Of a stretch of DNA of 12,743 nucleotides, positions 1 through 12,096 are shown in pieces. Location: contig JACPKR010000014.1 of the NCBI GenBank assembly GCA_016186945.1, positions 1 through 12,743 on the forward strand, written 5' to 3'. The translations under genes were made by a program, and so were the position numbers. A model generated the notes under the pieces. The model was not told where the DNA came from and ran no database searches. It was given only the letters and a program-made list of their open reading frames with translations. Source of the DNA: Deltaproteobacteria bacterium. GTDB taxonomy: Bacteria; Bdellovibrionota_B; Oligoflexia; Oligoflexales; Bog-1112. Each line of letters opens with the position of its first letter. Positions within the stretch are counted from its first letter, which is position 1.

Positions 1-70
1 TTGCCCAACGGCGAAGAGTATCGGGGTGGATGCCAAGATGCTTTGCAGCGTCTGTGATCTTGAGAAGCAT
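1..70 (-). CDS. Helix-turn-helix DNA-binding protein, N-terminal fragment
   Basis: A leftward frame opens with ATG at 70-68 and runs off the window after 23 codons. The visible peptide starts MLLKITDAAKHLGIHPDTLR and continues RWA. This is the typical first helix-turn-helix of MerR-like regulators, excisionases and IS607-type recombinase N-termini, which share the pattern 'aA..LGv.p.TLRrW'. The match is a family-level pattern seen by eye. The rest of the protein lies outside the window, so regulator, excisionase and recombinase cannot be told apart. The start has only a weak purine-rich RBS (AAGAG). It is divergent from the helicase gene, with a 96 bp AT-rich gap between them. Confidence 0.6.
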   Translation of the reverse strand, partial: MLLKITDAAKHLGIHPDTLRRWA

Positions 71-98
71 GCTCTTATAATTATGCTGCTCAATAGAT

Positions 99-166: not shown

Positions 167-2272
167 ATGTCCCCCATGTCCCCGGCTATTGATCGCATTC
201 TCGAAAAATTGAACGAGCCACAGAAAGAAGCTGTCCTGCACGAGGGAGGCCCCCTTGTCGTCTTTGCGGGAGCGGGGAGCGGTAAAACACGGGTGATTAC
301 TGCACGTATCGCCTATCTGCTTGAAACGGGGGTGCCCCCGCGTTCGATCGTCGCTATGACGTTTACCAACAAAGCAGCAGGGGAAATGAAAGAGCGGGTC
401 AAACTCTGGAGCCCCCTTGGTGAATATGTTCCGATAGGAACCTTCCACTCGCTCTGCGCCCGATGGTTGAGGGAATTTGCGAAGGAGATCGGTTTTACCG
501 CTGATTTTACGATTTACGACGACCAGGATTCCAAAGCTGTTCTCAAATCCGTTTTAACCGAGATGCAGGTAAAGATTGATAAAGGGATCACAGGTGACTT
601 TCTGTCCGCCATCGGACGTGCCAAAACGTTAGGCTGGCTACCTGACGAAGCAGAAAAGCAAGCTGATTTTTTCCCCACCATGGGCGTTGCTGTTTACCGT
701 CGTTACCAGGAGATCTTGTCGCAAAGCAACGCGATGGACTTCGACGACCTGCTTATGAATATGCTCCTGCTCTTGAAACGAAATCACGAGATTCGCAATC
801 TCATGCAGGCTCGTTTCCAACACATCCTGATCGACGAATATCAGGACACCAACCCTACACAGGCGTCCCTCATCCATCACCTTATGAATGAAAAACGTAA
901 CCTGATCGTTGTCGGTGACGACGACCAGTCTATTTATAGCTGGCGAGGAGCTGATCCGAGCAACATCCTTGGTTTCGGAAAACGCTACGCAGGAACAAAA
1001 ATCATCCGACTCGAACAAAACTATCGGTGTACAGGAAACATTGTCGGCGCAGCCTCTGCGATGATCGTCAATAACAAGAAGAGAGCTGAAAAAACCCTGT
1101 GGACACAAAACGAAGCCGGCCCTCACATCACCTATCACCAGGAATTTGACGCAGCGATGGAGGCCTTCTGGGTAACGGAACAGATCAAAGCAGAAACCTA
1201 CAAATTTCCTCATGACGAGGTCGCCATCTTCTACCGTACCAACGCGCAGTCGCGTCAATTGGAAGATTCGCTTCGCAAGCAAAATATTCCCTACCGCATC
1301 TATGGGGCTTTACGCTTCTATGATCGTGCGGAGATTAAAGATCTACTGGCTTATTTCCGCCTGATCATAAATCCAAAGGATGATGTGGCCTTTCGACGGA
1401 TAATCAACGTCCCTGCGCGAGGAATCGGGAAAAAGGCGTTGGAATTGATGGAGGAACTTGCCGATACAAGAGACGTCCCCCTCGTAGACACATTGCCTTA
1501 TATTGCCCAGCAACAGCCTCGCCTGGCAGCCAGGTTAAATCAACTGCGTGAACTCCTTGAAAAACTCAAGAAATCAGACGAGAAACACGCCCTTTCCGAA
1601 GTTTTACGAACAGTTTTGAACGCGACAGACTACCTTGCTTACATTCAAAAGAAATATGCTGATTCCTACACCGATCGTGTAGGCAACGTACACGAACTGG
1701 GAACAGCACTTGCGGAATATGAGCAGGCTAACCCCGAAGCTCGTCTGCGTGACTGGTTGAACGACGTATCCCTAAGTGGGAGCGAGCAGGAATACGAAAA
1801 CGGTGTCACCCTGATGACCTTGCACTCAGCGAAAGGCTTGGAATTTTCCCGAGTCTTCATTGTAGGCGTGGAGGACGGACTGATCCCTCACTCTCACAAT
1901 CTGGAAGACAAAGAGAAATTAGAGGAGGAGCGACGCCTCTTCTATGTCGGGCTGACACGAGCAAAACAACGATTGTCCCTCCTCTCTGCGGAGCGAAGGC
2001 GTATTTTCACTTACGACATGGTCAACGGCTTGTCGCGCTTTCTGAAGGAAATTCCTCTGGAATTTTTCGACCCCACCTCTCGACGTGCCCTCGACACAAA
2101 GCCGTCTGCCGATTTCCATACCAAGATGTCTCTCGTCTTCCATCCAACCTATGGACGCGGGCGAGTGACCCGCATCGAGAGCGCTCTTGGAGTCGCCAAA
2201 GCAGTCGTCGACTTTAGCAGATTCGGAGTAAGAAAGGTGAGCGTCACCCAACTGCGACCGATCGAGAACTAA
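167..2272 (+). CDS. uvrD: ATP-dependent DNA helicase, UvrD/PcrA family (SF1A)
   Basis: A 701-residue superfamily 1A 3'-5' DNA helicase, which unwinds DNA in repair and replication-fork rescue using ATP. All hallmark motifs are visible. The Q-motif (NEPQKEAV) is near residue 16 and the Walker A GAGSGKT ends at residues 40-41. Motif Ia is TFTNKAAGEM. Walker B LIDEYQDTN has its D-E pair at 223-224. Motif III is VVGDDDQSIYSWRG and motif IV LEQNYR. Motif V is TLMTLHSAKGLEF and motif VI EERRLFYVGLTRAKQRL. The last ~50 residues (SLVFHPTYGRGRVTRIES onwards) match the UvrD/PcrA C-terminal Tudor-like RNA polymerase contact domain, so the protein looks full length (family about 700-740). ATG at 167 follows GAGGA (156-160) at 6 nt; a second ATG nine bases on is less well placed. 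UvrD versus PcrA naming is arbitrary here. The gene converges on alr, and the alr readthrough frame runs antisense to its last ~350 bp. Confidence 0.95.
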   Translation: MSPMSPAIDRILEKLNEPQKEAVLHEGGPLVVFAGAGSGKTRVITARIAYLLETGVPPRSIVAMTFTNKAAGEMKERVKLWSPLGEYVPIGTFHSLCARWLREFAKEIGFTADFTIYDDQDSKAVLKSVLTEMQVKIDKGITGDFLSAIGRAKTLGWLPDEAEKQADFFPTMGVAVYRRYQEILSQSNAMDFDDLLMNMLLLLKRNHEIRNLMQARFQHILIDEYQDTNPTQASLIHHLMNEKRNLIVVGDDDQSIYSWRGADPSNILGFGKRYAGTKIIRLEQNYRCTGNIVGAASAMIVNNKKRAEKTLWTQNEAGPHITYHQEFDAAMEAFWVTEQIKAETYKFPHDEVAIFYRTNAQSRQLEDSLRKQNIPYRIYGALRFYDRAEIKDLLAYFRLIINPKDDVAFRRIINVPARGIGKKALELMEELADTRDVPLVDTLPYIAQQQPRLAARLNQLRELLEKLKKSDEKHALSEVLRTVLNATDYLAYIQKKYADSYTDRVGNVHELGTALAEYEQANPEARLRDWLNDVSLSGSEQEYENGVTLMTLHSAKGLEFSRVFIVGVEDGLIPHSHNLEDKEKLEEERRLFYVGLTRAKQRLSLLSAERRRIFTYDMVNGLSRFLKEIPLEFFDPTSRRALDTKPSADFHTKMSLVFHPTYGRGRVTRIESALGVAKAVVDFSRFGVRKVSVTQLRPIEN

Positions 2273-3529
2273 TCCTGAGGGTAATGCGTAAGCCACTTGG
2301 GGCAAATAGGGAGAGGGGGGTTTGGGGGGGCGAGGGAACCGTCGCTCCCCCAAGGGATTTCTTGGAGGAACCAGCTGCGCAGTTTCCTCCAAACCACCTC
2401 CTTGCCCCAAGTGGCTTACGCATCTTGGAATATTAGGAGGAAGGCGCGTCACAACTTCATAGTTGATCGTCTCTGCCCAAGAGGCAAGCTGTTCGGCACT
2501 TATGGTCTCCTGCCCTTCTTTCCCAAGCAAGGTCACCTGATCGCCAGGTTTCACGCCCCGTGCGTTTTCAAGGTCGACTATCGCCATATTCATGCAAACC
2601 CTGCCAAGAAGCGGGCAGCGCTTGCCTCGAATAAGGACGTACGCCCCTCTTCCCCCTGCAATCCAGGGGTAGCCTTCGTAATAGCCGACGGAGATAACGC
2701 CGACCTTCATGTTCCTCGTAGCTTTAAAGGTACAACCGTAGCCGACGAAGTCCCCGTTCTCGATTACTTTCACCTCCATCAAACGCGTTCTCCAGCTCAG
2801 AACGGGGCGGAGGTCGAATGTATCCCTTCCCAAAAATCCGCGGTAGGACAGTTTGGTCAGCCGAGAAGGCCACAGTCCATAGAGAGAGATGCCGACCCGG
2901 CAAAGGTCCAAACGCGCTGGTTCGAGTAGAAGGGAAGAAGCGGAGGAGGCCGCATGGGTGAGGAGCTGAAATCCTTCCTGCTTAAACAATGCCTGGGCAG
3001 CCAGAAGGCGCTGCAGCTGGAGCATTGCGAACGAAGTTTCAGAGACATCTTCAACGTTTGCAAAATGAGTGGCGAGGCCCACGAACTGTTCGCGGTAAGG
3101 CTTAAGCTCTTCCGCGAGACTTGGCAATTGCTCCGGCTGAAACCCTCGGCGGGAAAGGCCGGTGTCGACTTTCAAGTGCATGCTAGGTCGGGGGGCCATG
3201 AGGCGCCAGGCTTCCAGAGTCTCTTGGTTCCCGATGATAACGTCGGCTCTTAGTTTGTGTGCCTCTTCGAGATCAACCTTTAGAACCGGCCCGACGATTA
3301 GGATGCGACCTTGGTATTTCAGCTGGCGTAATAAGGAGGCTTCTTGCAGGTAGTTGACGCATAGCCAGGAGAGAGGGAGAGAAGCGAGGGCCTGGTAAAC
3401 TTCTGCTAAACCGTGGCCGTAAGCATTTGATTTCACGACCGGAGCTAGGCGATCTTCGCCTAATAGCTCGGCATAGAGCATGAAGTTATGGACGAGAGCT
3501 TCTCTGTCAATTTCAATCCAGGTATGCAT
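1919..3529 (-). CDS. alr: Alanine racemase with aberrant C-terminal extension
   Basis: A PLP-dependent racemase that interconverts L- and D-alanine, supplying D-Ala for peptidoglycan. Start ATG 3529-3527 (MHTWIEIDREALVHNF) has AGGA about 5 nt upstream. Conserved features are the PLP lysine in PVVKSNAYGHG (K33), the substrate-binding KVDTGLSRRGF, the HAASSAS region, the GYGCTF catalytic-tyrosine region, VGYYEGYPW and GRVCMNMAIVDL. The normal domain ends at about residue 369 (...EVVTRLPPNIPR), the usual Alr length. There the frame enters a palindromic repeat without meeting a stop. It continues for about 167 residues: first repeat-encoded sequence (GQGGGLEETAQLVPP...), then antisense of the helicase gene, with TAG at 1921-1919. 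Predicted total is 536 residues. The racemase core shows no lesion, so activity is plausible, but the tail may be degraded or harmful. An earlier in-frame ATG (to 3565) would add residues with no family support. Confidence 0.93.
   Translation of the reverse strand: MHTWIEIDREALVHNFMLYAELLGEDRLAPVVKSNAYGHGLAEVYQALASLPLSWLCVNYLQEASLLRQLKYQGRILIVGPVLKVDLEEAHKLRADVIIGNQETLEAWRLMAPRPSMHLKVDTGLSRRGFQPEQLPSLAEELKPYREQFVGLATHFANVEDVSETSFAMLQLQRLLAAQALFKQEGFQLLTHAASSASSLLLEPARLDLCRVGISLYGLWPSRLTKLSYRGFLGRDTFDLRPVLSWRTRLMEVKVIENGDFVGYGCTFKATRNMKVGVISVGYYEGYPWIAGGRGAYVLIRGKRCPLLGRVCMNMAIVDLENARGVKPGDQVTLLGKEGQETISAEQLASWAETINYEVVTRLPPNIPRCVSHLGQGGGLEETAQLVPPRNPLGERRFPRPPKPPSPYLPQVAYALPSGLVLDRSQLGDAHLSYSESAKVDDCFGDSKSALDAGHSPASIGWMEDERHLGMEIGRRLCVEGTSRGGVEKFQRNFLQKARQAVDHVVSENTPSLRREEGQSLFCSCQPDIEEASLLL
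2284..2423. repeat. Palindromic repeat copy 1 (long subtype, MITE/RPE-like)
   Basis: A 140 bp element bounded by perfect 22 bp terminal inverted repeats (2284-2305, beginning ATGCGTAAGCCACTTGG, and 2402-2423). Inside are two nested hairpins. Hairpin A pairs TTGGGGGGGCGA (2322-2333) with TCGCTCCCCCAA (2342-2353), 11 of 12 matching. Hairpin B pairs TTGGAGGAA (2362-2370) with TTCCTCCAA (2384-2392) around a self-complementary CTGCGCAG. Folded, it would make a three-way junction. It starts 12 bp after the helicase stop and its far end lies directly after the last conserved alr codon, replacing the alr stop. No transposase is present and I see no clear target duplication. It could also act as a bidirectional terminator, though no T-tract follows. 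Confidence 0.9.
2309..2336 (+). other. Canonical G-quadruplex motif in repeat copy 1
   Basis: The top strand reads G3-AGA-G6-TTT-G7-CGA-G3. This is four G-runs of at least three with three 3-nt loops, meeting the standard quadruplex pattern. In the helicase transcript it would fall in the 3' UTR. It overlaps the left arm of hairpin A, so quadruplex and hairpin are mutually exclusive folds. Confidence 0.75.
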
Positions 3530-3539
3530 AATTTTTCCT

Positions 3540-3694
3540 ATGGAAACCAGGCCCGCTTGTGGCAAGGAAGTAGTTTGGAGGAAACTGCGCAGCTGGTTCC
3601 TCCATGAATTCCTTGGGGGAGCGACGGTTCCCTCGCCCCCCCAAACCCCCCTCTCCCTTATTTGCCAAAAACAGTTTCCGGGTTACGACGCCAT
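3540..3694. repeat. Palindromic repeat copy 2 (long subtype, inverted, degenerate ends)
   Basis: The reverse complement of copy 1, with a nearly identical core. Hairpin B arms are at 3575-3583 and 3597-3604, and hairpin A arms at 3613-3624 and 3633-3644. The terminal arms have diverged: CGCTTGTGGCAA on the left and TTGCC...GGGTTACGACG on the right still align with the copy 1 ends, but imperfectly, so the outer limits are approximate. It sits immediately upstream of the alr ribosome-binding site, so it forms most of any alr mRNA leader. It also separates alr from the divergent rpmH operon. Confidence 0.8.
3630..3657 (-). other. Canonical G-quadruplex motif in repeat copy 2
   Basis: The bottom strand carries the same G3-AGA-G6-TTT-G7-CGA-G3 motif as copy 1, unchanged although the repeat ends have diverged. 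It would lie about 100-130 nt upstream of the alr start codon, on the alr sense strand. Confidence 0.75.
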
Positions 3695-11978: not shown

Positions 11979-12073
11979 ATCCGTAACCCACTTTATTTGC
12001 AAGGAGGTGGCTTGGAAGAAACTGCACGGCTGGTTCCTCCAAACCACCTCCTTGCCCCAAGTGGCTTACGCAT
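11979..12073. repeat. Palindromic repeat copy 3 (short subtype)
   Basis: A 95 bp element forming one long imperfect hairpin. The outer arms start ATCCGTAACCCACTT on the left and end AAGTGGCTTACGCAT on the right. A perfect 12 bp section pairs GCAAGGAGGTGG (11999-12010) with CCACCTCCTTGC (12044-12055). Inner arms TTGGAAGAA (12012-12020) and TTCCTCCAA (12034-12042) pair with one mismatch. The last 40 bp (12034-12073) are identical to 2384-2423 of copy 1. It lacks the hairpin A/G-quadruplex module of copies 1 and 2. Confidence 0.88.
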
Positions 12074-12096
12074 TACCTTACAGCTAGACAAAACCA

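Follow-up and report, generated by a model that had tools for sequence, protein, structure and literature searches.

At this locus the gene for alanine racemase (alr) reads on far beyond the end of its conserved enzyme, and the question is how the additional reading frame arose and what becomes of its product. In the window, i.e., the whole stretch of 12,743 nucleotides that was analysed, the minus-strand open reading frame at positions 3565–1919 comprises 548 residues from TTG at 3565, or 536 when counted from ATG at 3529, the likely start, which aligns with relatives. The racemase core occupies 369 codons (2423–3529, minus strand), contains the N- and C-terminal domains with their conserved residues (PF01168 and PF00842), scores 268.8 bits with TIGR00492 (cut-off 168), and is 47–56% identical to its Oligoflexia relatives. 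The Pfam matches (Ala_racemase_N and Ala_racemase_C) and the NCBIfam match TIGR00492 finish at residue 369–370 counted from ATG 3529. As proposed in the initial annotation, the enzyme ends at IPR exactly on the boundary of a repeat; the codon for Arg369 lies at 2425–2423, and, seen from alr, the repeat begins at the third base of this codon. The same annotation was also right that the frame continues via the repeat, and then antisense to the 3′ end of a helicase gene (uvrD), until 1919. The resulting in-frame tail (1919–2422, minus strand) has 167 codons and a stop, with about 47 codons in the repeat followed by about 119 antisense to uvrD.

A single alr copy was found in the genome. Searches of Pfam, NCBIfam and the PDB with the tail returned no homologue, and the only PDB match (E 0.32) was at chance level and was discarded. 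AlphaFold2 assigns pLDDT values of about 90 to the core and about 25–60, mostly below 50, to the tail, which is thus predicted to be disordered. The codon score of the repeat part lies below background, in a single-codon model that separates coding from non-coding sequence weakly and is only suggestive.

Alignment with Alr of close relatives had been suggested in the initial annotation as a means to locate the ancestral stop, together with the possibility that relatives share the tail as a conserved domain. Alr of relatives from the same genus, family and order lacks the tail and stops 3–8 codons past the equivalent IPR or IER, which places the native stop within a few codons of 2423 and makes the tail new. 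In a genome of the same genus (G001), Alr ends IPR-IIV-stop, the alr stop and the stop of a HEAT-like gene overlap by 4 nt, and no repeat copy is present there. As for the length of the open run, the phase antisense to uvrD that is used by alr is open for 119 codons, compared with 3 and 11 in the other two, and when synonymous codons of uvrD were resampled, this phase stayed open for 118 codons or more in 3.7% of trials. The run is unusual, not extraordinary, and because the genome holds hundreds of copies of the repeat, one such run is unsurprising.

The repeat at 2281–2423 (plus strand) resembles a miniature inverted-repeat transposable element (MITE), and alignment of copies and flanks shows that it covers positions 1–143 of a 146-bp consensus with termini GTAATGCGTAAG...CTTACGCATTAC. 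Full copies start with GTAATGCGTAAGCC and finish with GGCTTACGCATTAC, their ends being GTAA...TTAC. The left terminal inverted repeat at the locus (GTAATGCGTAAGCCACTTGGGGCAA, 2281–2305, plus strand) has an intact tip on the uvrD side, whereas the right one (2399–2423, minus strand) is, by comparison with intact copies, 3 bp short at the alr junction, lacking the terminal TAC (GTA on the alr strand), and no target duplication is found on this side. Elsewhere, direct repeats of 8 bp (e.g., TTGCCATC, AACAGTTC and GACCAAGC) or 9 bp abut the element ends exactly, and such target duplications flank 23 of 40 two-tipped copies (18 by a strict 8-bp register script and 5 with 9-bp repeats). Since inverted termini with abutting direct repeats are the characteristic traces that a non-autonomous element leaves on transposition, and because the element is short, has terminal inverted repeats of about 25 bp, occurs in many copies and with only 146 bp has no capacity to encode a transposase, it conforms to a MITE, the alr copy being one without a target duplication. 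About 17 of the 40 two-tipped copies also lack duplications, which may be a trace of further recombination events. A search for target duplications exchanged among copies, as proof of such recombination, gave no support, with 1 near-match compared with 1.0 expected by shuffling.

The draft genome (2.66 Mb in 76 contigs, 91% complete) contains 403 matches to the core hairpin of the element and 223 to its terminal 22-mer, as opposed to 0 for the control patterns, far more than chance would give, and 255 separate repeat places were counted in 1.1 Mb of sampled contigs (about 41% of the genome), or about 230 per Mb. Within the window, a second member of the family (3553–3669, minus strand), consisting of the inner part only, lies upstream of alr and is inverted relative to the first, and a third, partial copy is found at 11999–12077 (plus strand). 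Thus alr itself sits between two inverted members of the family (2281–2423 and 3553–3669) and could be flipped by recombination between them. No full-length copies were found among the 55 relatives searched, where the core hairpin alone is present in two genomes of the same family; these, from two other genera (G005 and G007), hold many core-hairpin copies (consensus about 84–132) without the outer termini. Judged from this distribution, the core may be an older repeat that was captured by a transposable form. An Rfam search of the window gave no match, and no literature on such a repeat in Oligoflexia was found. The IS66 family, with its GTAA termini and 8-bp target duplications, would fit as a possible autonomous parent, but IS66 transposase (PF03050, the sole Pfam model tried) had no match in the 91%-complete genome. 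The Correia elements (CREE) of Neisseria are of similar size and likewise have high copy numbers and terminal inverted repeats, but use a TA target and exert promoter effects upstream of genes, whereas duplications of 8–9 bp are seen here.

The missing tip is decisive for the reading of alr. The tip, GTAATGCGTAA, carries TAA in two of three frames, so that an intact one usually supplies the host gene with a new stop. The alr junction reads CCAAG followed directly by ATGCGTAAG, where an intact tip would give CCAAG followed by GTAATGCG. In the alr frame the intact tip reads AGG TAA, arginine and then stop, so it is the absence of these 3 bp that leaves the frame without a stop; because an intact copy would end alr at once, loss of the tip was needed for the tail. 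A survey of the sampled 1.1 Mb, based on frames of at least 90 codons entering an element, with a simple hexamer gene score and heuristic gene calls, gave the same picture. All frames entering an intact tip (16 of 16) stop within 12 nt, whereas 12 of 31 entering a tip-less end run through, 3 of these being overlapping stretches within one secretion-ATPase reading frame, and every run-through occurs at a tip-less copy. Other tails encoded by the element belong to a Maf protein (99 residues), a protein kinase (57), an SBP_bac_5 protein (33), an ABC transporter (21) and a GlpD-like oxidoreductase (16), and the peptide LGQGGGLEETAQLVPP is common to the tails of Alr, the ABC transporter and the oxidoreductase. 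The secretion-ATPase case is a type II/IV secretion ATPase-like reading frame (L211:820–2658, contig C15:20820–22658) with three in-frame stretches that resemble part of the element; their peptide, VPSPPQAPLSL, is reminiscent of Rickettsia palindromic elements.

The part of the tail beyond the repeat has a different origin, which becomes apparent from the gene order. On single contigs of the same-genus genome G001 and of six other genomes of the order (G008, G014, G015, G022, G024 and G025) the gene order is alr, HEAT-like, glmU-like, glmS and uvrD, with the HEAT-like gene on the strand opposite to the others. In most of these genomes a DivIC-like gene, on the uvrD strand, and a second gene follow uvrD; in G014 these last two genes are on the opposite strand, and the spacing varies among genomes. 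At our locus (contig C9), the uvrD-type helicase gene (167–2272, plus strand; PF00580 and PF13361) is inverted relative to this ancestral order, with its 3′ end pointing towards the repeat at 2281–2423 and alr approaching convergently from the other side. On contig C35, glmS and glmU are found on one strand and the HEAT-like gene on the other, followed by a 44-bp core of the repeat (consensus 82–125) and divIC on the same strand as the HEAT-like gene. Judged by gene order, the two junctions are the reciprocal breakpoints of an inversion of the HEAT-glmU-glmS-uvrD block, with the repeat exactly at each. In the simplest model, recombination took place in the core shared by two copies in opposite orientation, one of them behind alr and the other behind uvrD. 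An inversion between copies explains the absence of a target duplication at the alr copy, and it is the block inversion, and not the insertion, that accounts for those codons of the tail that are antisense to uvrD. Two features speak against this model: for TCCTGAGG, the left half of what may be a target duplication, the divIC side offers only the weak partner TCCTGTGT, and over its 143 bp the C9 copy is identical to the consensus, which would not be expected as a matter of course if it were a hybrid of two old, partial copies.

Some further features were noted around these junctions. At the start of contig C9, the minus strand of window positions 1–73 reads MLLKITDAAKHLGIHPDTLRRWA, which resembles the start of an IS607-type TnpA, and an insertion between glmS and uvrD could be the cause of the contig break. 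An attempt to join the ends of C9 and C35 via a shared insertion element found no second copy in the sampled contigs. On contig C35, L238:1998–2167 and 3000–3150 belong to another repeat family, unrelated to the first, about 167 bp long and present in dozens of copies across the contigs sampled. The glmU-like reading frame (L238:2085–2942, minus strand) also has its C-terminal end encoded by this family.

Taken together, we favor the following history, to which we assign a probability of about 80%. The high-copy, non-autonomous 146-bp element would have landed where alr and the HEAT-like gene converge with overlapping 3′ ends, and replaced the final few codons of alr and its stop. With the outermost 3 bp and the target duplication missing at alr, the in-frame TAA is gone and the frame is open through the element. 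Recombination with the oppositely oriented copy behind uvrD would then have inverted the HEAT-glmU-glmS-uvrD block and brought the uvrD 3′ end behind the element, adding about 119 antisense codons. If translated as read, the frame most likely yields a racemase that works, and its disordered C-terminal tail would be either tolerated, trimmed or degraded; the tail itself is probably neutral. The initial annotation attributed the fusion to insertion of the repeat; the repeat at the alr 3′ end did make a tail that relatives lack, but a plain insertion is insufficient, and loss of the tip and an inversion are required. Both had escaped the earlier reading, i.e., the 3 bp and the duplication lacking at the alr-side end, and the inverted gene order beyond the repeat compared with the relatives checked. 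With respect to its two proposals for the tail, a tolerated or trimmed extension or a real novelty, a tolerated accident is the most likely outcome, and evidence for a functional novelty is lacking.

The long tail might rarely be made, if the strong hairpin that the element forms in the alr transcript leads to cleavage or to an end of the message ahead of the stop, so that tmRNA rescues the ribosome and Alr is lowered or its product tagged and degraded. The RNA of the element on the alr strand is predicted to form a very stable hairpin (−87 kcal/mol, z −8.7), a tmRNA gene is present in the genome, and the same idea, a fate involving RNase III and non-stop messages, has been proposed for Coxiella enhC with its QMITE2 tail (PMC5896051). 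On the other hand, the alr strand has no clear run of U after the hairpin, as a terminator would, and because Alr is normally essential, enough product must survive. We regard this fate as somewhat unlikely; it concerns the product and not the origin of the tail, and can be compatible with the history favored above. A different concern is the assembly. Should the true genome have kept the ancestral order, with flanks exchanged within the repeat during assembly, the codons antisense to uvrD would be an artefact; the junction of alr with the repeat, and with it the loss of the native stop, would be unaffected. The draft state of the genome, the abundance of the repeat, the contig breaks near both junctions and the 139 identical bases that other sampled copies share with the C9 repeat make such an error conceivable. 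However, the HEAT-divIC junction holds only a 44-bp remnant, which is marked by a mismatch, has 34 bases identical to those of the C9 copy and is of a length that ordinary reads can cover, and the reciprocal junctions are found on separate contigs; an artefact is therefore improbable. A new, selected property conferred on the racemase by its tail is very improbable. The frame that is open over 167 codons, at a modest chance probability, would speak for it; against it are the lack of homologues, a repeat part that scores below background, the predicted disorder, and the tails from the same element that unrelated genes bear.

Events of this kind belong to the effects of MITEs that are already known from Rickettsia and Coxiella. 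In Coxiella burnetii strain Dugway, enhC has a C-terminal extension supplied by QMITE2, and QMITEs occur at gene 3′ ends, with one copy that lacks a direct repeat after an inversion (PMC5896051). Similar to alr, and by description rather than sequence, this is a MITE at a gene 3′ end that gives an in-frame extension, with an indel deciding the reading and a strong RNA stem. Unlike the alr tail, which runs about 119 codons further, antisense into a neighbor moved by inversion, the enhC tail has 33 residues and stops right after the element. Rickettsia palindromic elements are also read in frame in protein genes (PMC10969869, PMC2229807), and are alike in description in being palindromic and about 105–150 bp long. 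They are often located inside genes in open frame, whereas most contacts here are at gene ends, with the tip supplying the stop. Particular to the present locus is the combination of a stop-bearing tip, its loss, and an inversion that adds antisense codons.

A broader role of the tip can be envisaged, in which it serves as a portable stop that makes insertions at gene ends harmless, so that copies accumulate there, while tip loss and recombination between copies repeatedly create long C-terminal tails in this lineage, the alr tail being truly translated. We consider this extension rather unlikely as a whole, but the underlying rule, that frames stop at an intact tip and run on where the tip is lost, can be checked over several hundred copies in one genome. 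As for alr, the tail is most likely a tolerated, probably useless accident. The locus nevertheless keeps a stepwise sequence record of how a small mobile repeat takes the stop of a gene, loses it, and through an inversion changes what lies downstream, the enzyme affected being one that should be intolerant of damage, and it is a warning that annotators may mistake such tails for real domains.
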